Of a DNA stretch of 47,585 nt, positions 6,057 to 17,630 are shown one piece after another. Within the stretch, counting starts at the first letter, position 1, and each line of letters starts with the position of its first letter. The translations under genes and the position numbers were made by a program. The notes under the pieces are model-generated. The model was not told the DNA's origin. It saw only the letters and a program-made list of their open reading frames with translations, and searched no databases. This DNA is from an uncultured Rubrobacteraceae bacterium (GTDB lineage Bacteria > Actinomycetota > Rubrobacteria > Rubrobacterales > Rubrobacteraceae), in assembly GCA_902806095.1 (NCBI GenBank), contig CADCVF010000013.1, forward strand, positions 1-47,585, written 5' to 3'.

Positions 6057-7457
6057 ATGGAGACGGTGATCCAGGGCTCGACACTACAGACCTTACGTGC
6101 CGGCCTGCGCGGCACCGCGCACGCGCCTGGAGAGGAGGGCTACGAGGACGCGAGCCGGGCGTGGAACCTGGCCGCCCATCAGCAGCCCGCGCTGGTTATA
6201 GTAGCCAGGGGTGCGGCTGATGTGATTGCAGCCGTGCGTTTCGCCCGCGAAGGGGGGCTCGGTGTCGGGGTGATGGCGACGGGCCACGGCGTGGGCGCTG
6301 CCTGCGACGGTGGGGTCCTGATCAATACCTCCAACATGAGAGGCGTCAGGGTAGACCCCGTGGATAGGACGGCGAGGGTCGAGGCCGGCGCGCTGTGGCT
6401 CGACCTGATCCACGAGTCCCAGCTGCACGGCCTGGCCGGCCTCCTTGGCTCCACCTCCCACGTCGGCGTCGTCGGCTATACGATGGGCGGCGGCTTCGGA
6501 TGGCTCGGGCGCAAGTACGGCTTCAACGCCGCGAGCGTGAGGGAGGCAGACGTAGTCACCGCAGACGGCGAGCTGGTACGCGTGAGCTACGAGGAGCATC
6601 CCGACCTGTTCTGGGGCCTTGGTGGCGGAGGCGGCAACTTCGGAATCGTCACTTCCCTGAAGTTCGACCTCTACCCAATTGGGATGCTCTACGGTGGCAA
6701 CCTCATCTACCCTGTGGAGAAGGCGCCTGAGGTGCTGGATGCCTACGTCCGCTGGAGCGCTGATCTCCCTGACGAGATGACCTCGGGGGTGGCGTTCCTG
6801 AACGTCCCTCCACTGCCCGCGCTCCCCGAGCCGCTACGCGGCAAGTCCGTAATAGCCGTGCGCGGCTGCTACTGTGGGGAGTCGCCTGGTGACGGCGAGA
6901 AGCTGGTGCGGCCCTTGCGCGAGGAGCTCGGCGAGCCGATCATGGACACCTTCGGGATGATGCCGTACGCGGCGATGGACTCCATAAGCATGGACCCGGT
7001 CGATCCTATGGGGGCCCGCCAGCACTCCGAGATGCTGGGCGACCTCTCGCCCGAGGCAATCGAAACGCTCGTAGAGGTAGCCGGCGCCGGTTCCGGCTCG
7101 CCCCTGATCTTGCTCGAGATCCGACACCTCGGCGGCGCCCTGGCCCGCACCGCCGACCGCTTGAGCACCATGGGCAAGGGCGACTCCAAATTCATCATGA
7201 ACGGGATCGGACCGGCCTTCACGCCGGAGATGGCGGAAGGGGTCGTGGCTTACCTCGCCCGCGTGGCCGACGCGACACGCCCCTTCCAGACTGGCGACAC
7301 CTACGTCAACTTCATGGAGCTCGGCGGTGCGAGCACCGAGAGGGTAAAGGCAGCCTACGCGCCAGAGGACTTCGAGCGCCTCGTCGCCCTCAAGGACCGC
7401 TACGACCCACACAACATCTTCCGCTTCAACCGCAACATCGCCCCCTCGAAGGCGTAG
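6057..7457 (+). CDS. FAD-linked oxidase (PCMH/BBE family)
   Basis: This 466-residue protein carries an N-terminal PCMH-type FAD domain: PALVIVARGAADVIAAVRFA, then ATGHGVGAACDGGVLI, where the His of the GHG stretch is the usual site of covalent 8-alpha-histidyl FAD attachment, then GVVGYTMGGGFGWLGRKYG and GGGGNFGIVT. The C-terminal berberine-bridge-like tail YDPHNIFRFNRNI is intact. The second covalent site (Cys) seen in bicovalent members is replaced by Ser/Thr in GSTSHVG. Such enzymes oxidise sugars, alkaloids or small alcohols with oxygen as acceptor; the substrate cannot be told from sequence. ATG 6057 follows GAAGGGAG. A strong hairpin follows immediately, so it is probably a single-gene unit. 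Confidence 0.9.
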   Translation: METVIQGSTLQTLRAGLRGTAHAPGEEGYEDASRAWNLAAHQQPALVIVARGAADVIAAVRFAREGGLGVGVMATGHGVGAACDGGVLINTSNMRGVRVDPVDRTARVEAGALWLDLIHESQLHGLAGLLGSTSHVGVVGYTMGGGFGWLGRKYGFNAASVREADVVTADGELVRVSYEEHPDLFWGLGGGGGNFGIVTSLKFDLYPIGMLYGGNLIYPVEKAPEVLDAYVRWSADLPDEMTSGVAFLNVPPLPALPEPLRGKSVIAVRGCYCGESPGDGEKLVRPLREELGEPIMDTFGMMPYAAMDSISMDPVDPMGARQHSEMLGDLSPEAIETLVEVAGAGSGSPLILLEIRHLGGALARTADRLSTMGKGDSKFIMNGIGPAFTPEMAEGVVAYLARVADATRPFQTGDTYVNFMELGGASTERVKAAYAPEDFERLVALKDRYDPHNIFRFNRNIAPSKA

Positions 7458-7621: not shown

Positions 7622-7660
7622 GCGTGAGATATTGTGAGCACTCTCGTGGGAAAGGGAAGG
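7622..7660 (+). promoter_or_regulatory. Shared upstream element, copy A (permease)
   Basis: GCGTGAGATATT (7622-7633), an 11-nt spacer, then a purine-rich CGTGGGAAAGGGAAGG (7645-7660). The first 12 bases are identical to a copy at 9197 upstream of the glutamine-synthetase-like gene, the spacer length is the same, and both copies start exactly 64 nt before their start codons. This points to a common promoter or operator co-regulating uptake and the first enzyme. Confidence 0.65.
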
Positions 7661-7685
7661 ACTTCGGTCGAGCAAAGGAGTCGCT

Positions 7686-9170
7686 ATGACCACAGAAGCT
7701 GGAGGCACCGAGAGCCCGCACCTGCGGCGTGAGTTGCATCTGTGGGAGGCGGTTGGTATCTCGCTGGCGCTTATGGCGCCTTCGATGGCGGCAAACATCA
7801 ACCCGCAGGGCACTGCCGACACCGGCGTCGGACGCGCCGTTCCGCTCGCGTTCGCGCTGGCGACCATCGGCGTGCTTCTGATCGCCTGGACCTTCGTCAG
7901 GCTCACCCAGCGCTTCAACCACGCCGGCAGCGTGTACGGTTTCGTAGGGGCGACGCTCGGACCGCGGGCCGGCGTTATCTCGGGATGGGCGCTGATGGGT
8001 ACGTATACTTTCTACGGCGTCGTTACGTCCACAGCGGCCGGAATCTTCGGCGCCGACTTTCTGGACAGCCTCGGCATCTGGACGAACCAGCCTGGATGGG
8101 CGCCGTTCGTCGTCGGCGGGGTCGCCCTCGCTGGCGTGTGGGCGCTGGCGGCCTCGAAGATCCGGGGGGGCACCAGGGTGCTCCTGGTTATCGAGGCGAC
8201 GACGGTCGCGCTCATACTCATCGTCAGCGTCGTCATCCTGATCCGGCTCGCGACCGGCACTGCTCCGAATGGCAACACGCTAGACTTCTCGGTGTTCACG
8301 ATACCAGCCGGGGCGGGCACGTCGGCGGTCTTCCTCGGTGTTGTATTCGGGTTCCTCTCCTTCGCCGGGTTCGAGGCCGCAGCGACGCTGGGCGAGGAGG
8401 CGCAGGAGCCCCGCCGCGACATACCGCGGGCGATCCTCGGCGTCGCCATCTTCGGCGGGCTGTACTACGTCTTCGTCACCGCCATCGAGGTGATGGGCTT
8501 CGGAACCGACGCCAGGGGGGTCGAGAACTTCATCGCATCGGACTCGCTCCTCGGCGACCTCGGCAGCCAGTTCGTCGCTGGGTGGGTCGGCGAGCTTATC
8601 ACCATCGGCGCCGCGATCAGCGCCTTCGGATGCGCGCTGGCGTGCATCGTGGGGGCGACGCGGCTGCTGTACGCGCTCTCGCGCGACGAGGTCGGACCGG
8701 CCCCGCTCGGCACGGTCTCCTCGAGGAGCGGTGTCCCTGCACGGTCCACGGCCACCGTCGCCATCGGTGCTTACGCAATTATCGCCCTCGGCTGGCTCGT
8801 ATTCGGCGTCGCCCCCTTCGATCTGTTCGTGGCATCGGGAACGATCGGCACCCTGATCCTGCTCCTGGTCTACGCGCTCGCTACCATAGGGGCCGCGAAG
8901 CTACTGTTCCTCTCGGGCGAGCGGCAGGTCGCGGCGTGGGAGGTCGTCGTGCCGTTTTTGGCCCTCGTCGTCATCGGCTACACGCTCTTCCGCAACGTTT
9001 ATCCCTATCCTGCTGGTGCGCTGGCATGGTACCCGATCATCGCCGCGGTCTGGGTCATCGTCGGGATCATCCTCACGTTCGTCCGTAATGCCGCGACACA
9101 GCAGGCCGGCGAGAGGATGATGGCCGAGGAGGGTCTCACCACAGGGGGCGGCTCCAGGACGCAGGGTTAG
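7686..9170 (+). CDS. APC-family amino acid/amine permease
   Basis: The 494-residue protein has about 12 hydrophobic segments beginning with LWEAVGISLALMAPSMAANI, an APC-type first helix where the substrate backbone is bound. FLSFAGFEAAATLGEEAQEPRRDIPRAI is the strongly conserved APC helix 6 and following loop (FxGFExxxxxxEE-x3-PxRxIP). It should import an amino acid or amine by proton or sodium symport. The start follows AAAGGAG 5 nt before ATG. Its upstream element matches that of the adjacent ligase gene cluster, which suggests it takes up the substrate or a gamma-glutamyl-type conjugate used by that cluster. Confidence 0.9.
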   Translation: MTTEAGGTESPHLRRELHLWEAVGISLALMAPSMAANINPQGTADTGVGRAVPLAFALATIGVLLIAWTFVRLTQRFNHAGSVYGFVGATLGPRAGVISGWALMGTYTFYGVVTSTAAGIFGADFLDSLGIWTNQPGWAPFVVGGVALAGVWALAASKIRGGTRVLLVIEATTVALILIVSVVILIRLATGTAPNGNTLDFSVFTIPAGAGTSAVFLGVVFGFLSFAGFEAAATLGEEAQEPRRDIPRAILGVAIFGGLYYVFVTAIEVMGFGTDARGVENFIASDSLLGDLGSQFVAGWVGELITIGAAISAFGCALACIVGATRLLYALSRDEVGPAPLGTVSSRSGVPARSTATVAIGAYAIIALGWLVFGVAPFDLFVASGTIGTLILLLVYALATIGAAKLLFLSGERQVAAWEVVVPFLALVVIGYTLFRNVYPYPAGALAWYPIIAAVWVIVGIILTFVRNAATQQAGERMMAEEGLTTGGGSRTQG

Positions 9171-9196
9171 CGGACCCTGTGGAACGAAAGATCGAA

Positions 9197-9234
9197 GCGT
9201 GAGATATTAGGCGCATCATCGCGTAAGGGAAAGG
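9197..9234 (+). promoter_or_regulatory. Shared upstream element, copy B (ligase operon)
   Basis: GCGTGAGATATT (9197-9208), 11 nt, then CGCGTAAGGGAAAGG (9220-9234), starting 64 nt before the ATG at 9261. It is the second copy of the element at 7622. Between the copies the spacer bases differ, which argues for selection on the conserved parts rather than a recent duplication. Confidence 0.65.
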
Positions 9235-9260
9235 TATTCAGCTACATCCTAGGGGGTGCG

Positions 9261-10601
9261 ATGCAAGCCGAGTCCGAGACACAGGAGAGCGTAGCGCGAC
9301 CTTTGCCCGAGGACACTCTGTGGGTCCGGTTCGCGTTCGTGGATCACGCGGGCATCCCCAAGTGCAAGGCGGTCCACAGGGACGGCTTCAAAGGGAGGGC
9401 GAGGGCCGGGGTAGGTCTCGCCAAGGGGGTGCTGGCACTTGACCCGAGCGGGGCGCTGCACCCCGAGTCGGGGTTGAGTCCCGTCGGAGAGTGCCGGCTG
9501 GTCCCTGACCTCTCGACCCTCACCGCCTTGCCGTTCGCCCGCGGGCAGGCGATGGTCTCCTGCGATATGACGGAACCCGACGCGAGCACGCCGTGGGAGG
9601 GATGCCCGCGTAGCGCCCTCAAGCGGGTACTCGCACGGCTCGCCGAAAGAGGCTACAGGTCGCTCGCTTCCTACGAGACCGAGTTCTACGTCTGGGATGC
9701 TGATGGCCCCCTTGACAGGACGCCGTACGCCGGGAGCTACGCGCTGACCCCGGCGGCGGACTTCGTCGCCGAGCTGGCACAGACGCTGGAGGAGATGGGC
9801 ATCCGGCCCGAGCAGTGCCACGCCGAAGTCGGGCAGGGAAACCTCGAGCTCTCCGTGGGGGAGGACGAAGCGCTGGTTGCTGCAGACAAGCGCGTGATGG
9901 TGCTCGAAGCGATCAGGGGCGTGGCCTACCGGATGGAACTACAAACCACGATGGCCCCCAAACCGTATCTGGAAGGGGCAGGCAACGGCCACCACCTGCA
10001 CGTGAGCCTCTACGAAAGGGAGATCCCTGTGCTCTTCGACACTTCGGGAGCATTGAGCGGCCCCGGCTCTGGCTTCGTGGCCGGGATCCTGGAGCATCTG
10101 CCCGCCGTCATGGCGTTCACCGCCCCGAGCCCCAACTCCTACCAGCGGCTCGCCCCAGGCATGTGGGCCTCGGCTTACGCTGCTTACGGCCTGGACAACA
10201 GGGAGGCCGCCGTACGGCTCGCCTCGCCAGTGGCCGGCAGGGAGTCTGCAACCGCCAACGTCGAGATCAAGCCGGTCGACGTCACTTCGAATCCCTACCT
10301 GGCCCTCACCGCGGTCCTGGCCGCCGGGATGGATGGGATGGATCGCGGCCTCGACCCCGGGGAGCCGACGATGGTCGACCCCGCTACATTGAGCGAGGAG
10401 GAGCGTGCCTCACAAGGTATCCGACCACTACCCGCCTCCCCGGACGAGGCATTGGATGCACTGGAGAAAGACGACGCCCTTCTAGAGGCGTTGGGCAAAC
10501 CGCTGGTGCGTACCCACGTGGCCGTGGCGCGGGCGCAAGCCGCAATCGCCAGAGAGCTACCGCCTGAGGAGGTGGCGGCCACGGCCGCGATGCTCTACTG
10601 A
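9261..10601 (+). CDS. Glutamine-synthetase-like ligase (GlnA3/PuuA type), first copy
   Basis: The 446-residue protein retains the type I glutamine synthetase catalytic boxes: SYETEFYVW (metal ligands), HAEVGQGNLEL, AGNGHHLHVSL (metal-binding His), the substrate and ATP region SYQRLAPGMW with YGLDNREAAVRL, and VEIKPVDVTSNPYLAL. In true glutamine synthetases the last box reads EFR; here the arginine is a lysine (EIK). No adenylylation-type tail is recognisable. Family members with this divergence usually ligate glutamate to amines (gamma-glutamylpolyamine, -ethanolamine or -isopropylamide synthetases) rather than ammonia. It heads an apparent operon of at least five genes and shares its upstream element with the permease gene. 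The substrate amine is not deducible. Confidence 0.88.
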   Translation: MQAESETQESVARPLPEDTLWVRFAFVDHAGIPKCKAVHRDGFKGRARAGVGLAKGVLALDPSGALHPESGLSPVGECRLVPDLSTLTALPFARGQAMVSCDMTEPDASTPWEGCPRSALKRVLARLAERGYRSLASYETEFYVWDADGPLDRTPYAGSYALTPAADFVAELAQTLEEMGIRPEQCHAEVGQGNLELSVGEDEALVAADKRVMVLEAIRGVAYRMELQTTMAPKPYLEGAGNGHHLHVSLYEREIPVLFDTSGALSGPGSGFVAGILEHLPAVMAFTAPSPNSYQRLAPGMWASAYAAYGLDNREAAVRLASPVAGRESATANVEIKPVDVTSNPYLALTAVLAAGMDGMDRGLDPGEPTMVDPATLSEEERASQGIRPLPASPDEALDALEKDDALLEALGKPLVRTHVAVARAQAAIARELPPEEVAATAAMLY

Positions 10602-10669
10602 ATAGGCCTCAGGTCACAGACATCAGCAAAACACCTGAAACCTGAAGCCTGATGGAAAGGAGGCGCAGC

Positions 10670-11488
10670 GTGATTGGTCCGCTAGCCGGAGCGGGAGAGA
10701 TCCTGCGCGGTCCCGGAGACTTCGCCCTGCTGCATGAACGGGCAATGCCGCAGAAAGACCAGTTGTGCGGCGCGTTCTGGGGAGCCCTGACCCTCTCGGC
10801 CTTCGGCCACGCCGCGAGCCAGGAGGAGGTCGCGCTCCTGGCAGGAACGACCCTTGCGGAGGGGGACCCCGCGGCGTGGCTGCCGCCGGGGGCCTCACCC
10901 CGGGTGGATTACGAGGCAACCATCCCGACCGCGCCCGACGGGGCTTCCGCGGGAACGTCAGCGACGGGGGTCGCAAGGGGCATCGAGGAGCTCTCCGGGG
11001 GTGCGCTGGCCGTCGTCCCCGTGGCGGGACCGTGGAGTTCCGACACGGTAGTCTCGCTCGTCGAGATCGTCGCCGCACAGGCGCCCGAGGGCGCCCTGAT
11101 CGTCAACTTGCGCACGGGACACTTGTGGGGCTCGCGCCCTCCCGCGAGGCTCTTGCTCGACTGCTTGCTCGGGCGGCCGGTGGAGGTGCCGCCGCCGGAC
11201 TGGGACTGCGGACACTTCCTGACGATCGCGGCTTGCGTGTCCGGTCCCGGCGGTGCTCTCGTCGTCCTCCGCGACACCTACCCGCAGCTCGGCTGGGACG
11301 GCCATCACCTGCAGCCGGCAGGGGCGGTGGCGGCGGCGCTCGAACGGGGCGATGGGCACGAAGGCGGGGTGCTCTGCGCCTGCGAGGTGCGAGTAGCCGA
11401 AACCCTCGCCGATCGGCTGGGGGAGGCGGGTTTCGAGCTGCGCCACTGGGACAACGGCTCGCCAGACCGCGACGGGGGAGGTGAGTAG
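10670..11488 (+). CDS. C39-peptidase-like protein in the ligase operon
   Basis: The open frame begins at ATG 10652, but AAAGGAGG (10656-10663) lies inside that extension and is ideally spaced for GTG 10670, which I take as the start (272 residues). Near the N-terminus is QKDQLCGAFWGALTL, with Gln28 and Cys33 arranged as in C39-like papain-fold peptidases. DCGHFLTIA (His182) and LRDTYPQLGWDGHHLQPAG (Asp202) fit the rest of a Cys-His-Asp triad. No ATP or metal site is visible. I do not recognise a characterised member; DUF6885 in actinobacteria may be related. Position between two ligase genes suggests it hydrolyses or transfers a gamma-glutamyl amide. That role is inference. Confidence 0.65.
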   Translation: MIGPLAGAGEILRGPGDFALLHERAMPQKDQLCGAFWGALTLSAFGHAASQEEVALLAGTTLAEGDPAAWLPPGASPRVDYEATIPTAPDGASAGTSATGVARGIEELSGGALAVVPVAGPWSSDTVVSLVEIVAAQAPEGALIVNLRTGHLWGSRPPARLLLDCLLGRPVEVPPPDWDCGHFLTIAACVSGPGGALVVLRDTYPQLGWDGHHLQPAGAVAAALERGDGHEGGVLCACEVRVAETLADRLGEAGFELRHWDNGSPDRDGGGE

Positions 11489-11489
11489 C

Positions 11490-12803
11490 GTGCGGGGTGA
11501 GGAGCTCGTCGCCTTTCTCCACAGCGATATCTCGGGTCTGAGCCGGGGCCGGTCGGTCCCGGTTACAGAGCTCGACGAGCGCTTTGCGGCGGGCGTAGGG
11601 TGGGTACCGGCGGATCAGGCACTCACCCCCTTCGGGCCCATCGCCGAGCCGAACCCCTTCGGGTCGCTAGGCGATCTCCGCCTCCTCCCCGACAGGGAGT
11701 CCCGCGTGCGCGTCGATCTGTGGGACGACGCCTCACCCCTTCACTTCTTCCTCTGCGACGCTGTGAACACCGACGGTAGTCCCTGGGACGCTTGCCCACG
11801 CACGCTACTCAAAGGAGCCCTCTCCCGGCTGGAGGAGGCCGGGTTCAGCCTGGTCGCCTCCTTCGAGCAGGAGTTCATTCTGGAAGGCCTCGGCGCGGAG
11901 CCAGGACCGGGCTTCTCGCTGGAGGCCCAGCGGCTCGTCGAGCCCTTCGGCCCGCTGGTGATGGCCGCCCTGCGGCAGGCAGGCCTCGAGCCTGAAGTGT
12001 TTCTCCCCGAGTACGGAGAGGGCCAGTACGAGGTCCCCTGCGCGCCCGTGGAGGGCGTCTCGGGCGCCGACCGGGCCGCCGCCATGCGGGAGGTCGTCCG
12101 CGAGGTGGCCCGCAGGCTCGGCTACCGGGCCAGCTTCGTCCCGAAGGCCGACCCGGAGGGAGTAGGCAATGGCGTCCACATCCACCTCAGCCTCGTTGAT
12201 CTGGAGGACCGTCCGGTGTTCTACGATCCCGGGCGGCCAGGCCGGCTCAGCACCGTCGGCGCCCGCTTCGCGGCGGGCATCCTCGAACACCTGCCGGCCC
12301 TCTGCGCCTTCACCGCCCCGAGCGTCGTCTCTTACCTGCGCCTCGTGCCGCACTTCTGGAGCGCGGGCTTCGGTTGCCTGGGCGAGCGCAACAGGGAGAC
12401 GGCCATCCGGATTCCGCCTATAGTAGAACTGTCGGGCGGCGACCCAGCGCGCCAGTTCAACCTCGAGTTCAGGGCTGCCGACGCGGCGGCGTGCCCCCAC
12501 CTGGCTCTAGCCGTGCTCGTCCTCGCCGGCATGCGTGGGCTCCAGGACGAACTCCCGGAGCCGACCCTGATCGAGGAGGATCCCACCGGGCTAGACGAAG
12601 AGGAACGGCGGAGGTTGGGCATCCGTGAGCTTCCTGGTTCGCTGTACGAAGCCCTCGGAGCCCTCGAGACGGACGCGGTCGTCAGGTCCTGGATCCCGTC
12701 CGACCTCTGGGACTGCTATCTGAGCGTGAAGAGGAACGAGATAGACCTCCTGGAAGGAGCAGAGCCAGGGGAAGCCTGTGAGCGGTACCTGCGTGTCTAC
12801 TGA
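11490..12803 (+). CDS. Glutamine-synthetase-like ligase, second copy
   Basis: GTG 11490 is chosen because GGAGGTGA (11476-11483) is 6 nt upstream; a GTG at 11481 overlaps that site. The 437-residue protein has the type I fold boxes: SFEQEFIL, PEYGEGQYEVPC, GVGNGVHIHLSL, SYLRLVPHFW with LGERNRETAIRIPP, and FNLEFRAADAAACPHLAL, which keeps the EFR arginine. It is strongly diverged from the first ligase in the cluster, so the pair is not a recent duplication and probably acts on different acceptors or in opposite steps. It overlaps the next gene by up to 26 nt, which indicates translational coupling. Substrate unknown. Confidence 0.87.
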   Translation: MRGEELVAFLHSDISGLSRGRSVPVTELDERFAAGVGWVPADQALTPFGPIAEPNPFGSLGDLRLLPDRESRVRVDLWDDASPLHFFLCDAVNTDGSPWDACPRTLLKGALSRLEEAGFSLVASFEQEFILEGLGAEPGPGFSLEAQRLVEPFGPLVMAALRQAGLEPEVFLPEYGEGQYEVPCAPVEGVSGADRAAAMREVVREVARRLGYRASFVPKADPEGVGNGVHIHLSLVDLEDRPVFYDPGRPGRLSTVGARFAAGILEHLPALCAFTAPSVVSYLRLVPHFWSAGFGCLGERNRETAIRIPPIVELSGGDPARQFNLEFRAADAAACPHLALAVLVLAGMRGLQDELPEPTLIEEDPTGLDEEERRRLGIRELPGSLYEALGALETDAVVRSWIPSDLWDCYLSVKRNEIDLLEGAEPGEACERYLRVY

Positions 12804-13995
12804 TCTCCTCGAGACACTCCTCCATTCCCTGGAAGAGGAGCTTCCGCGAGCTCTCGAACTGCGCGAGCGGCTACATATGATTCCTGAGCCGAGCCATGGG
12901 GAGCACGCCACCTCCGGTCTCGTCGCGGAGGCCCTCAGGACGAGGAGCGTGGAGTCCGTCGCCCGTACGGGCCTCCTGGCGCGCGTCGGACCTCCGGGGG
13001 AGGCCGTCGCGGTGCGGGCCGAGCTCGACGCCCTGCCCATCGAGGAGGAGACAGGCTCGTCCTTCGCCGCCACCAACGGTTTCATGCACGCCTGCGGCCA
13101 CGACGTCCACATGGCCGCGCTCGCGGCACTGTTTCGGGCCGCTGGGCGGAGCGAAGGATCTCTACCGAAGCCTCTCGCCGCCCTCTTCCAGCCGAGCGAG
13201 GAAGCTTACCCTTCGGGGGCGGATCTGGTCGTCAGAGAAGGTGTGTTGGAGGAGGAAATAGGCGCGGTCGTAGCAGCGCACGTCCACCCCGACGTCCCCT
13301 GGGGCTCGGTCAGTGTGGAGGCCGGTCCGGTAAACGCTTCCTCGGACAACCTGCACATAACCGTCGAGGGATCCGGCGGCCACGGAGCCTATCCCCACCG
13401 TGCGCATGATCCCATACTCGCCCTCTCTCACGCCGTGGTGGCGCTCCAGTCGCTGGTGAGTCGCAGGTTGGACCCTACGCACGCCGCGGTCTTCAGCGTC
13501 GGTTGGATGCGTGCGGGATCCGCCGAGAACGTCATACCGGGCGTCGGCGAGGCCGGCGGCACGCTGCGCGCCCTCGATCCCGCCGATCGCCAGCCTCTTC
13601 GAAGGATGGCCCGCGAGATCGTGGAGAACACGGCCAGGGCGCACGGCTGCGTTGCCAGGATAGATGTGACCGAGGGAGAGCCAGTAACCCTCAACGACCC
13701 GGCTCTGGCCGAAGCGGCGCGCTCTCTGCTTCCCGAAGCTGGCTTCCAGCCAGCACCAGCGATGAGGTCCTGCGGGTCAGACGACTTCGGCTTCTATGGT
13801 CGAACGTCACCGACGCTCATGCTGTTCGTAGGGCTCAAGAACGGTTCTGGCACCCAGAACGTACCGCTCCACCATCCGCGGTTCTTGCCCTCCAACGAGG
13901 CAGTAAGAGCGGTCGCCCGGGCCCAGGCCGTCGCCTTCACGGCCGCTGTGACTTCCCTTGACCAGATCCCCCTCGGACCAACGGCGGGTAAGTGA
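12778..13995 (+). CDS. M20D amidohydrolase (IAA-amino acid/hippurate hydrolase type)
   Basis: The 405-residue protein is a two-domain M20 metallo-amidohydrolase. Metal-site motifs are visible: HACGHDVHMA (Cys106, His108, as in M20D enzymes where Cys bridges Mn), PSEEAYPSGA (catalytic Glu), HVHPDVPWG, and LHHPRFLP near the end. The lid domain has GGHGAYPHRAHDP. M20D enzymes cut amide bonds of N-acyl amino acids such as auxin conjugates and hippurate. Starts at GTG 12778 (AGGGGAAG upstream) or GTG 12793 are both possible; both overlap the preceding ligase. In this context it may release the amine or amino acid moiety from an amide conjugate. Confidence 0.9.
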   Translation: MSGTCVSTDLLETLLHSLEEELPRALELRERLHMIPEPSHGEHATSGLVAEALRTRSVESVARTGLLARVGPPGEAVAVRAELDALPIEEETGSSFAATNGFMHACGHDVHMAALAALFRAAGRSEGSLPKPLAALFQPSEEAYPSGADLVVREGVLEEEIGAVVAAHVHPDVPWGSVSVEAGPVNASSDNLHITVEGSGGHGAYPHRAHDPILALSHAVVALQSLVSRRLDPTHAAVFSVGWMRAGSAENVIPGVGEAGGTLRALDPADRQPLRRMAREIVENTARAHGCVARIDVTEGEPVTLNDPALAEAARSLLPEAGFQPAPAMRSCGSDDFGFYGRTSPTLMLFVGLKNGSGTQNVPLHHPRFLPSNEAVRAVARAQAVAFTAAVTSLDQIPLGPTAGK

Positions 13996-14016
13996 TGCTT
14001 TGAACGGAGGCGGCGC

Positions 14017-15156
14017 ATGCAAACGATAGACCTCACCCAGGTTCCTGTCGTTGACAACCACTGCCACAGCATAATGCGGGATCAGACGTTCGATGACATT
14101 GCGGGGTGGCGACAGTCCTTCACCGAGTCCACGGACTCTGGTATGGCGCGAGACCACGTCGCGAGCACGGCTTTGTACCGCCGCCTCATCCAGACGCTGG
14201 CCGACTTTCTCGGCTGCGAGCCGGAAGAGGAAGCTGTGTTCGCAGCCAGGACCGGTAGGGACGGGCGGGAGATCATAGGCGCATTGTTGCGAGCCGCGAA
14301 CGTCGATACTCTCCTCCTGGACACGGGGTTCCCACCACCCGAAGAAGTGTTTCCTTTACCAGAATTGGGAAAGCTCGGAGGCTGCCGCACGGAGCCGATG
14401 CTGAGGCTCGAGATCCTGATGGAGAGTCTTCTCGCGGAACACGATTCTCTGGAGGATGTTAAAGGGGCGCTTGCCGCCGAGCTGGATGATGTGCGGGGCC
14501 GGGACTACGTGGCGCTCAAGAGCATCGCCGCCTACAGGACGGGCCTGGACATTCGGGAGTGGCCCCGCGAGGAGGCCGAAGAATCGTTCCACGAATACAG
14601 GCGGGCCGCCGGGGCGGGCCATGCGCGTCTCGCCCACAAGCCGCTCCTGGACACCTTGCTCCACGTTGCGTTCGCACAGGCGGCCCGGCAGGAAGTCTCG
14701 GTCCAGTTTCACGTCGGCTATGGTGACGCAGACACCGATCTCCTTCTCGGCAATCCTCTCTACCTGCGCCCGGTGCTTCAGAGGCCGGACTATCGTGGTA
14801 TGCCCGTCGTGCTGCTGCACGAGTGCTACCCTTATACCAGGCAAGGCAGCTACCTGGCCGCCGTCTACGAGAACGTCTACCTGGATCTCTCCTACGGCAT
14901 CCCCCTGCTCGGCTACGGCGAGATGCTCTCCTTCACCCGGCAGGCACTAGGTGTCGCCCCGAGCTCCAAGCTCATGTACAGCTCCGACGGCATCGGGGTG
15001 CCCGAGCTACACTGGATCAGCGCCATAGACGGACGGCGCGTGCTGGGCGAGGCACTCGGAGAGCTAGTGGCGTATGGAGAACTTGACCTCCTCGAGGCCG
15101 AAGCTGTCGGCGAGGGTATGCTGCGCGGCAACGCGATACGCGTGTACAGGCTCTAA
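14017..15156 (+). CDS. Amidohydrolase-2 family protein, FluG/NodGS N-domain type
   Basis: The 379-residue protein is a TIM-barrel amidohydrolase: VVDNHCHSIM gives the first HxH metal pair (His15, His17), QFHVGYGD a third His, LLHECYPYTRQGSYLA a fourth with Glu, and MYSSDGIGVPELHW the catalytic Asp. VVDNHCH with the Ser/Glu-rich helix is the pattern of the N-terminal half of fungal FluG and plant NodGS, where it is fused to a C-terminal glutamine-synthetase-like domain. Here the two halves are separate genes in one operon, which supports a joint function. It follows the M20 gene by 21 nt with GGAGG upstream. The substrate is unknown. Confidence 0.85.
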   Translation: MQTIDLTQVPVVDNHCHSIMRDQTFDDIAGWRQSFTESTDSGMARDHVASTALYRRLIQTLADFLGCEPEEEAVFAARTGRDGREIIGALLRAANVDTLLLDTGFPPPEEVFPLPELGKLGGCRTEPMLRLEILMESLLAEHDSLEDVKGALAAELDDVRGRDYVALKSIAAYRTGLDIREWPREEAEESFHEYRRAAGAGHARLAHKPLLDTLLHVAFAQAARQEVSVQFHVGYGDADTDLLLGNPLYLRPVLQRPDYRGMPVVLLHECYPYTRQGSYLAAVYENVYLDLSYGIPLLGYGEMLSFTRQALGVAPSSKLMYSSDGIGVPELHWISAIDGRRVLGEALGELVAYGELDLLEAEAVGEGMLRGNAIRVYRL

Positions 15157-15313: not shown

Positions 15314-15787
15314 TTGTATCGACAGGCACGCTTGGTTGGTGTGCTGCTCATCCTGCAGGTGGTCGCGATGGTGGGGCTCGGCGTCTGGTTGTTCAGCAGG
15401 TTCGACTGGAACCGGGCTCTGAACATTACCAGCGGGTCGGGCAAGATCAACGTCCAGACCATCGAGGGGCCGTGGTTGGAGCCGCTAGTGCGGGCGCTCT
15501 TGTTCGTAGTCTACTTTCTCGGGCCGGCGATCCTGTTGCTTCTCGCCGGCCTCGGCTTCGTGCTGCTCAGGCGCCGGGGATGGATGCTGGCCTCGGTCGC
15601 GCAGGCCCTGATCATGCTGGCCTGCCTTTTCTTCTATGGCGACTCGCGTCCATGGTTCGCCTACCCTTTAATCGCGTACTGCATCTTGATGATCCTGTTC
15701 TTGAACTCTCGCAGCGTGCGGGAGGTAGTCCACCGTAGACGGCTGACGCCGGAGGAGGCTAGACCGGAGATCGCACATGGCGAATGA
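15314..15787 (+). CDS. Four-helix membrane protein, partner of the Vps62-like gene
   Basis: The product has 157 residues and four predicted membrane helices (starting VGVLLILQVVAMVGLGVWLF, then LVRALLFVVYFLGPAILLLL, WMLASVAQALIMLACLFFYG and FAYPLIAYCILMILFL), with a basic C-terminal tail. The start is TTG 15314 after GGGGGCGAG; no ATG or GTG is available in frame before the first helix. The next gene starts 11 nt before its stop, so the two are co-translated. I do not recognise the family. The layout suggests an integral membrane partner for the larger downstream protein. Confidence 0.7.
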   Translation: MYRQARLVGVLLILQVVAMVGLGVWLFSRFDWNRALNITSGSGKINVQTIEGPWLEPLVRALLFVVYFLGPAILLLLAGLGFVLLRRRGWMLASVAQALIMLACLFFYGDSRPWFAYPLIAYCILMILFLNSRSVREVVHRRRLTPEEARPEIAHGE

Positions 15788-17630
15788 GGAGAGCGTGGAC
15801 GCGAGGACCGCCGAGGCGCTGCTGCGCCGCTTCGAGCCCGTGATCCGGTTCACCAAGGGCGAGTGGTTCTACCCGATGGACTGCGAACCCTACGTCGACG
15901 CCTGCAGCCTCTGGGTCGCACGTCCGGGCGAGGACGCCCTCTGCGTAGTCCCGGCCGGAGAGCTCACCCTGGAGAGGCTAGCCCAGCAGCCGGAGGACAC
16001 CACCGGCGCCGTACACTACCTCAAGATCCCCAACCCCAAGGAAGGGGAGGATCGGGGACGCCGCGCGCGGCGCTCGCACACGAACCCCGATTGGCCAAAG
16101 GAGACCTTCAGGGCCGGCAGGGGCCGCCTCGCGCGCGTCGGCTACGTCTCGCGGCTGGCGGACGCGCTGTTCTCCCTGGCGCTGCTGGCCAGGGGGAGGG
16201 TCCCCGGTGGGGACGTGGAGGGTGGGCGTGTCCTGTACGGCCGTTTCATGGAGGAGGGGCAACGCTTCAGGTACCACGGGCACGTGGTTCGGCAGGACGG
16301 TTGGATCGTCTTGCGGTACTGGCTCTTCTACGCGTTCAACGACTGGAGGAGCAATGTCTTCGGCGCGAACGACCACGAGGCCGACTGGGAGAAAATATTC
16401 GTGTACCTCTCGGAGTCGGAGTCCGGCGAGGTAAGGCCCGAGTGGGTGGCCTACGCGGCGCACGAGGAGACCGGCGACGACCTCAGGCGCCGGTGGGACG
16501 ACCCGGAGCTGGAGAAGGTTGGCGAGCATCCCGTGGCGTACGCCTGTGCCGGCTCGCACGCGACCCGCTACTTCCGGGGCGAGTACCTGACCGAGCTCGC
16601 TTTCCCCCTGCCGCGCGTCCTCTCCGCGGTCAGGAGGATCGCGCGTCGCTTCTGGTACGTAACGCTGCGCCAGTACGCCGACGAGGACTACAAGGAGAAG
16701 CCCTACGAACAATTCACCATCCCCTTCGTGGATTACGGGCGCGGGGACGGGTGGTCGGTCGGGCCCGGGCAGGACAGGGAGTGGGACCCCCCGCGCCTCA
16801 TGAACCCGTTGCCCTCGTGGGTCTCGGGATACCGGGGGCTGTGGGGGCTGTACACCCGGGATCCCTTCGAGGGAGAGGACGCCCCGGCGGGGCCGATGTA
16901 CAACCGCGACAAGACCATCAGCCGCGAGTGGTTCGACCCCGTAGGCTGGGCCGGTCTCGACAAGGTGCCGACCCGGGCGGAAGAACTCGAGGTCATAACC
17001 GGGCGCCAGGCGGAGATCGAAGAACGCCGGGCGTTTCTCCGCTCCGAACTAAGGGAGAAGAGCAGCCGGCTGAAGGCGCTCGGCATGGACGCTGAAGCCA
17101 CACGCAACCAGTCCCACCTGAGCAAGCTCCACGGGGACCAGACGCGGCACATCGAAGACCTATCCAAGGAAGTCGAGACGCTGCGCGCACAACTGTCCGA
17201 CGACGAAGTCCTCGCCGAGTCCTTGAAGGATCATGCCGAACGCTTGAGAGACGGTGAGCGTCCCCCCGCGCACGCCCACATAATGCACGCCACGCGCCCC
17301 GTCTCCGAGGCGGAGACCCACGCTGGGAGGGTGGCGCAGCTGTGGGCCTCGATCAGCATCACCTTGGTACTTGTGACGCTCATCCTCATCATCGCCTACG
17401 AGAGATCGCACCTTCTCTCCGCGCTCGTCTTCGCCATCGCCATGTTCGCGTTCATCGAGGCCGGTTTCAGGAGGCGACTAGCCAGGTTCATAGTGAGCGT
17501 TAACGTCGCGTTGGCGGTAGTCGGCGCCCTGGTTCTCCTCGAACACTACTTCTGGAGTGTTATCGTCCTCGCTGTCCTGGCCGTAGGACTCTACATCCTG
17601 TGGGAGAACCTGCGGGAGCTAGGACGGTAG
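15777..17630 (+). CDS. Vps62-like domain, coiled coil and four membrane helices
   Basis: This 617-residue protein falls into three parts. Residues about 18-380 resemble the Vps62 family: FEPVIRFTKGEWFYPMD at the start, YWLFYAFNDW (181-190), HEADWEKIFVYL (200-211), VAYAAHEETGDD (224-234), and EHPVAYACAGSHATRYF (250-266), where Vps62 proteins have conserved HEGDWE and GSHA boxes. Residues about 400-510 are charged and heptad-like (coiled coil). Residues about 523-610 form four hydrophobic helices ending WENLREL. The fusion of this domain to a coiled coil and a C-terminal membrane anchor is unusual. Vps62 proteins have no settled biochemical role in bacteria. The Vps62 match is from motif recall and moderate in strength; the rest is seen directly. 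Confidence 0.65.
   Translation: MANEESVDARTAEALLRRFEPVIRFTKGEWFYPMDCEPYVDACSLWVARPGEDALCVVPAGELTLERLAQQPEDTTGAVHYLKIPNPKEGEDRGRRARRSHTNPDWPKETFRAGRGRLARVGYVSRLADALFSLALLARGRVPGGDVEGGRVLYGRFMEEGQRFRYHGHVVRQDGWIVLRYWLFYAFNDWRSNVFGANDHEADWEKIFVYLSESESGEVRPEWVAYAAHEETGDDLRRRWDDPELEKVGEHPVAYACAGSHATRYFRGEYLTELAFPLPRVLSAVRRIARRFWYVTLRQYADEDYKEKPYEQFTIPFVDYGRGDGWSVGPGQDREWDPPRLMNPLPSWVSGYRGLWGLYTRDPFEGEDAPAGPMYNRDKTISREWFDPVGWAGLDKVPTRAEELEVITGRQAEIEERRAFLRSELREKSSRLKALGMDAEATRNQSHLSKLHGDQTRHIEDLSKEVETLRAQLSDDEVLAESLKDHAERLRDGERPPAHAHIMHATRPVSEAETHAGRVAQLWASISITLVLVTLILIIAYERSHLLSALVFAIAMFAFIEAGFRRRLARFIVSVNVALAVVGALVLLEHYFWSVIVLAVLAVGLYILWENLRELGR

Follow-up and report, generated by a model that had tools for sequence, protein, structure and literature searches.

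Six co-directional genes at positions 7686-15156 of a 47,585-nucleotide stretch from an uncultured Rubrobacteraceae bacterium (contig CADCVF010000013.1; the whole stretch is called the window) form one tight unit. They encode a permease, two ligases resembling glutamine synthetase (GS), a protein of the DUF6885 family, an M20D-type amidohydrolase and a metal amidohydrolase related to the N-terminal half of FluG. With confidence slightly better than even, this operon is read here as serving gamma-glutamyl-amide metabolism, with DUF6885 most likely cleaving the gamma-glutamyl amide. A broader proposal is tentative and falls somewhat short of even confidence: that DUF6885 represents an unrecognised class of papain-fold gamma-glutamyl-amide hydrolases, unrelated to glutamine amidotransferases (GATases), which act as dedicated ligase partners in Actinomycetota, Chloroflexota and haloarchaea. 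The evidence comes from a strong pathway linkage between DUF6885 and GS-like ligases, observed across genomes, and from the predicted fold and active site of DUF6885.

Four points are new as far as the literature searched shows: that DUF6885 partners such ligases, that it has a papain fold with conserved catalytic residues, that it extends into haloarchaea, and that the operon is composite. Split FluG halves (SCO6962/SCO6961) and the ligase-hydrolase pairs PuuA/PuuD and AtdA1/AtdA2 are already known. A family without annotated function thus gains a concrete and testable role, that of a partner to gamma-glutamyl-amine ligases; the pathways of these ligases may accordingly include a hydrolase fold new to them. 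The genes concerned, all confirmed as open reading frames (ORFs) of a Rubrobacteraceae-type genome, are as follows.

7686-9170, plus strand: APC-family amino acid/amine permease, 494 aa (PF00324, E 8e-31; PF13520, E 8e-29)
9261-10601, plus strand: GS-like ligase 1 (GS1), 446 aa, predicted gamma-glutamyl-amine ligase and partner of the FluG-type amidohydrolase (PF00120, E 1e-82)
10670-11488, plus strand: DUF6885, predicted papain-fold cysteine enzyme, 272 aa from a GTG start or 278 aa from ATG 10652 (PF21819, E 1.4e-75)
11490-12803, plus strand: GS-like ligase 2 (GS2), PA5508 clade (PF00120, E 2e-78)
12778-13995, plus strand: M20D-type amidohydrolase, 405 aa (TIGR01891, 258 bits; PF01546)
14017-15156, plus strand: FluG N-terminal-type metal amidohydrolase (AH), 379 aa (PF04909; phmmer to 2QPX, E 4e-45)
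10670-13995, plus strand: DUF6885-GS2-M20 cassette, a putative insertion between GS1 and AH (four other genera have GS1 next to AH and no cassette between them; all three gene types occur together in Solirubrobacterales)

Linkage of DUF6885 with GS-like ligases

The grouping of these genes is not a product of chance, because the adjacency recurs across genomes. In a scan that took a single genome from each species, 53 loci were obtained. At 43 of them DUF6885 has a GS-like gene immediately before or after it on the same strand; at a 44th (L055) the GS gene is adjacent across a gap of about 380 bp. With some five GS genes per 4,000, a neighbour of this kind is expected by chance at ~0.25% per locus, and the naive binomial probability of ~1e-105 overstates the significance because many loci are related. 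More telling than this figure is the spread of the ligase partners, which come from three clades (that of PA5508, one of actinomycetes and one of Thermoleophilia/Chloroflexota) as well as isolated types. On the DUF6885 tree the partner label must change 10 times (minimum 4; shuffled mean 24.5), and partners have therefore been conserved within groups, yet switched.

Further matches came later, from outside the set on which the idea was formed. In two Chloroflexota genomes GS immediately precedes DUF6885, and two Haladaptatus plasmids carry a GS-DUF6885-M20-permease array plus a FluG-type amidohydrolase with 34.7-35.5% identity to AH of the window. One Haladaptatus plasmid also has a second GS gene, and all six gene types are thus found on the plasmid of H. 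caseinilyticus. The haloarchaeal M20 gave no BLAST match to the M20 of the window, so that M20 proteins of different subfamilies were recruited; M20 peptidases from dissimilar subfamilies are found repeatedly next to the DUF6885-GS pair, and M20D itself recurs there in Rubrobacteraceae and Solirubrobacterales loci. The co-occurrence on which the earlier note, a first reading of this DNA, had placed weight therefore reaches beyond the lineage, to Chloroflexota and haloarchaea among others, but the genes are not a fixed set in the bacteria examined. Neighbours of the actinomycete GS-DUF6885 pairs, where checked, gave no consistent pathway clue.

The pairing could instead be an inherited gene order without functional coupling, and many loci do come from close relatives (Rhodococcus, Nocardioides) with common surroundings. 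However, it involves several GS clades and both gene orders, and spans Actinomycetota, Chloroflexota and haloarchaeal plasmids. This explanation was already disfavoured and is very improbable. A GS-DUF6885 gene fusion was also considered and rejected, the apparent long ORFs being frames that extend upstream in another frame. DUF6885 itself is uncommon: 11 of 396 genomes sampled from the phylum have it, as do 1 of 292 in a Cyanobacteriota sample and 3 of 301 in a Chloroflexota sample; the lone cyanobacterial match and one of the three Chloroflexota matches are the genomes on which those samples were centred.

Fold and active site of DUF6885

The protein was initially described as C39-peptidase-like. 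It belongs to Pfam family PF21819 (DUF6885), which has no annotated function, and a literature search found no paper naming the family. A Pfam scan up to E 10 returned DUF6885 plus a sub-threshold EccE match only, with no match to C39, PF05023 or PF14399, and a search of Protein Data Bank sequences with the DUF6885 profile gave no credible match. With zero C39 model matches up to that E-value, a plain C39 peptidase was rejected, and the predicted papain fold is no more distant from phytochelatin synthase than from C39.

Four residues are predicted to be catalytic: Q34, C39, H188 and D208 when counted from the ATG, equivalent to Gln28, Cys33, His182 and Asp202 from the GTG. Their order and spacing fit a papain-like (clan CA) active site. 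All four are invariant in 53 aligned homologues, including the Cys and His whose conservation the earlier note had treated as decisive, and eleven positions are invariant overall. The same residues are visible in two haloarchaeal homologues. Translation may start at ATG 10652 or at GTG 10670, downstream of AAAGGAGG. The residue numbers first proposed are right, because the position of the Shine-Dalgarno sequence favours GTG 10670.

An AlphaFold2 model of DUF6885 (predicted local distance difference test, pLDDT, 94.2; predicted template modelling score, pTM, 0.91) has a papain fold. Foldseek matched it to papain-type enzymes with modest scores, and VIA-align returned 301 chains at Z 8 or more, those listed being papain-like. 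The highest among the matches listed were 22oc, labelled 'P210 CD lyase' (Z 15.1), the phytochelatin synthase Alr0975 (Z 14.4; root-mean-square deviation 2.8; 169 aligned), the pseudomurein endoisopeptidase PeiR (13.9) and the C39 domain of ComA (12.4). A literature search for a papain-like CD lyase found no paper. Profile comparison by hhalign gave weak scores: 45% probability for BtrH_N, 0.9% for phytochelatin synthase and 0.1-0.2% for unrelated controls. Weak as they are, the alignments with BtrH_N and phytochelatin synthase both pair H188 and D208 with the corresponding His and Asp. DUF6885 thus resembles Alr0975, BtrH and C39 peptidases in its modelled fold and Q-C-H-D pattern, but differs from them in its lack of a Pfam match to their families, its weak profile similarity and its linkage to GS-like ligases.

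These relatives bring in the possibility that DUF6885 is an acyltransferase, which would pass a gamma-glutamyl (or gamma-glutamyl-X) group from the acyl-enzyme to a second amine or amino acid, in the manner of phytochelatin synthase or BtrH. Its nearest named small-molecule relatives, Alr0975 by structure and BtrH_N by weak profile match, are acyltransferases, and the adjoining M20 and metal amidohydrolases could supply hydrolysis. However, no acyl-carrier or second biosynthetic enzyme lies nearby, the permeases and aminotransferases of the neighbourhoods look catabolic, and primitive phytochelatin synthase is mainly a hydrolase. Transfer is accordingly considered unlikely.

The two GS-like ligases

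Residues of both ligases were read from an alignment with Escherichia coli GlnA, PuuA and PA5508. GS1 and GS2 retain the metal- and glutamate-binding set (E129, E131, E212, E220, H269 and E357) together with R321, R339 and R344. The ammonium-site residues D50 and E327 are lost, being replaced by A and W in GS1 and by V and W in GS2, a pattern as in PuuA and PA5508. The true GlnA of the same genome, on contig C36, retains the D50/E327 pair. This residue pattern supports the assignment of both proteins to the gamma-glutamyl-organic-amine ligase (GoaS/PuuA) type, as first proposed, and because of it GS1 and GS2 are strongly expected to form gamma-glutamyl amides.

GS2 shares 49.5% identity with PA5508 (phmmer to 4HPP, E 8e-138) and lies inside the PA5508 clade with support 100 in the GS tree. 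GS1 is a separate, long-branched type (to 4HPP, E 4e-62). PA5508 has been described as an aromatic-monoamine ligase (PMC6478659). The relationship to PA5508, the one clue to the substrate, suggests bulky or aromatic amines.

The proposed pathway

The permease would take up an amine or amide, and GS1 and GS2 would couple an organic amine, probably bulky or aromatic, to the gamma-carboxyl of glutamate. DUF6885 would then act on the ligase product, or a processed form of it, through a Cys33 acyl-enzyme (Cys-His-Asp with an oxyanion Gln) and release glutamate. Its role for GS1 and GS2 would be that of the PuuD- or AtdA2-type GATases for other ligases. The M20D and FluG-type hydrolases presumably attack other bonds, amide or ring, in the same molecule. 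The gene set, residue patterns, fold, recurrent pairing of ligase and DUF6885 and composite origin are computational results. That DUF6885 hydrolyses and does not transfer, and that a gamma-glutamyl bond is its target, are inferred from its modelled fold, its residues and its ligase partnership; the amine and the order of steps are likewise putative.

DUF6885 might act upstream instead, hydrolysing an imported amide or peptide and thereby freeing an amine for glutamylation by the neighbouring ligase. Transporters of peptide or amino-acid type do lie beside DUF6885, of the APC type in the window, L020 and L029, of the SBP_bac_5 type in L028 and of a branched-chain-type ABC system in L037. M20 and CN_hydrolase neighbours share an amide-bond theme, and such an order has been proposed for the amidohydrolase half of FluG (PMC6478659). 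However, many actinomycete loci consist of an isolated GS and DUF6885 pair with no conserved transporter, and changes of partner between ligase clades that probably use different amines fit recognition of a common glutamyl part better. An upstream role is judged improbable.

Several observations weigh against cleavage of a gamma-glutamyl amide by DUF6885. No GS gene adjoins DUF6885 at nine of the 53 loci (L020, L022, L024, L025, L026, L028, L037, L041 and L044); certain of these contigs are short or truncated, and ligase-type GS genes were present at other sites in all such genomes that were checked. In L018, a close relative, the GS2 copy is broken, with the other operon genes intact. Phytochelatin synthase, the closest structural relative with a characterised function, acts on a gamma-glutamyl substrate, yet the bond that it cleaves is Cys-Gly, and it is able to transfer instead of hydrolysing. 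BtrH is an acyltransferase (PMC10318531). Contig C40 of the genome that holds the window carries a locus with a PuuD-like Peptidase_C26, a PuuA-like ligase and an aldehyde dehydrogenase, and a gamma-glutamyl hydrolase is therefore already present in this organism. Loci L029 and L049 carry C26 in one cluster with DUF6885.

Some of these loci have features of their own. The broken GS2 (L018:1739-2557, on a contig shared with L128) lacks residues about 99-263 and has an interrupted frame, for which decay or an assembly fault is possible; its intact companions are DUF6885, M20 and the amidohydrolase. DUF6885 of two cyanobacterial metagenome-assembled genomes (L025:9917-10750 and L026:10016-10786) has all catalytic residues, and both genomes have ligase-type GS genes at other sites. 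The genomes of L024 (G398) and L041 (G401) have unusually many GS catalytic domain matches, 12 and 16, respectively.

Comparison with known ligase-hydrolase systems

The earlier note had reasoned that no GATase of the PuuD type was present and that the C39-like protein (DUF6885) was instead a plausible gamma-glutamyl hydrolase. None of the six operon proteins matches PF07722 (PuuD-type class I GATase), but the Peptidase_C26 on contig C40 shows that the absence does not extend to the genome. The idea of a substitute for a missing PuuD was accordingly rejected in that form. With C26 present in this genome and also at L029 and L049, DUF6885 belongs to another ligase and is not merely a gap-filler for PuuD.

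The operon resembles the E. coli Puu pathway (PuuP-PuuA-PuuD-PuuC-PuuB) in its APC-type permease, its GS-like ligases without the ammonium site and its cysteine-hydrolase-type gene. It differs in that none of its six proteins is a C26 PuuD, a PuuB oxidase or a PuuC dehydrogenase, whereas it has a predicted papain-fold DUF6885, two ligases and M20D and FluG-type hydrolases. In AtdA1-AtdA2 and NpaA1-NpaA2, a GoaS ligase is paired with a GATase hydrolase of the gamma-glutamyl product (PMC11335346). The pairing of ligase and hydrolase is similar, the hydrolase role of DUF6885 being predicted, but the hydrolase there is GATase-like and here of modelled papain fold, and the operon has no dioxygenase genes.

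PA5508 (4HPP), a GS-like ligase of Pseudomonadota, shares with GS2 the D50V and E327W changes. Unlike GS2, the PA5508-type ligases of Alphaproteobacteria (L163-L165) lie with an isochorismatase-type cysteine hydrolase, an FGase (PF05013) and an aminotransferase or M20, not with DUF6885. Such neighbours suggest that PA5508-type ligases take alternative hydrolase partners. These analogous plasmid clusters occupy L163:7337-11442, L164:7265-11440 and L165:7357-11358, and a literature search on the alphaproteobacterial PA5508-like cluster found no paper.

Composite origin and the FluG comparison

Four other Rubrobacteraceae genera (L097, L119, L120 and L122) have GS1 (80-85% identity) followed directly by AH (73-77%), with none of DUF6885, GS2 and M20 between them; L097 also has the permease beside GS1 (85% identity, equal length). 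Because GS1 adjoins AH in these genera, the window operon is composite, and a single ancestral unit of six genes was rejected for Rubrobacteraceae. DUF6885-GS-M20 arrays with their own GS and without the amidohydrolase occur in Solirubrobacterales. The simplest history is one in which a DUF6885-GS2-M20 insertion parted GS1 from its amidohydrolase. GC content and third-position GC (GC3) are similar across the operon genes and give no compositional sign of recent insertion.

This history admits two independent pathways on one transcript, a FluG-like APC-GS1-amidohydrolase set and a DUF6885-GS2-M20 set that landed inside it, with no common intermediate. The separate existence of both sets, in the four genera and in Solirubrobacterales, favours such a split, which is compatible with DUF6885 as a hydrolase. 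However, the Haladaptatus caseinilyticus plasmid unites the six gene types once more, differently arranged, and GS, amidohydrolase and M20 also adjoin in L126, which comes from the same genus as the window. Two unconnected pathways are therefore regarded as somewhat unlikely. At L126:8272-11977 the GS-like, FluG-type amidohydrolase and M20 (67% identity) genes are consecutive on one strand, and DUF6885 of that genome lies elsewhere, beside a permease (L127).

Both FluG-like parts are present as separate ORFs, AH matching 2QPX and GS2 matching 4HPP, as the earlier note had recognised. These two structures are the templates used for FluG, whose halves have been shown to be replaceable by the two bacterial homologues LSEI_0440 (2QPX) and PA5508 (PMC6478659). 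The separate pair is not new, SCO6962/SCO6961 being a precedent (cited in PMC6478659). The operon is like FluG and the split GlnA3/SCO6962-SCO6961 pair in joining GS1 with a 2QPX-type amidohydrolase and in the relation of GS2 to PA5508/4HPP; unlike FluG, it has its parts on separate proteins and places DUF6885, a second ligase and M20D in between. FluG is a fungal developmental regulator. Because GS1 and the amidohydrolase match its two halves, the operon offers bacterial genes for working out FluG-type reactions biochemically. The M20D match is above the curated TIGR01891 cut-off of 153.75 bits.

Gene boundaries and flanking genes

The tight overlaps first reported in one direction are borne out for the six co-directional ORFs at DUF6885/GS2, GS2/M20 and M20/AH, whereas short gaps separate the permease from GS1 (90 bp) and GS1 from DUF6885 (50-68 bp, depending on the start). 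The GS2 ORF opens at GTG 11481, but GTG 11490 is the more likely start, with better Shine-Dalgarno spacing. DUF6885 and GS2 are thus 1 bp apart, or overlap by 8 bp with the earlier GS2 start. GS2 and M20 overlap by 26 bp, and 21 bp separate M20 from AH. The genome measures 3.83 Mb in 85 contigs, and its closest named relative by DUF6885 is a Rubrobacteraceae metagenome-assembled genome with 86% identity.

The permease is preceded on its own strand, at a distance of 228 bp, by a berberine-bridge-type FAD oxidase (6057-7457 in the window). This oxidase is probably outside the operon, because it was not seen beside the operon in L097. Downstream, positions 15777-17630 of the window encode a 617-aa protein without a Pfam match, a 91% identical copy of which lies just downstream of the operon in L018.

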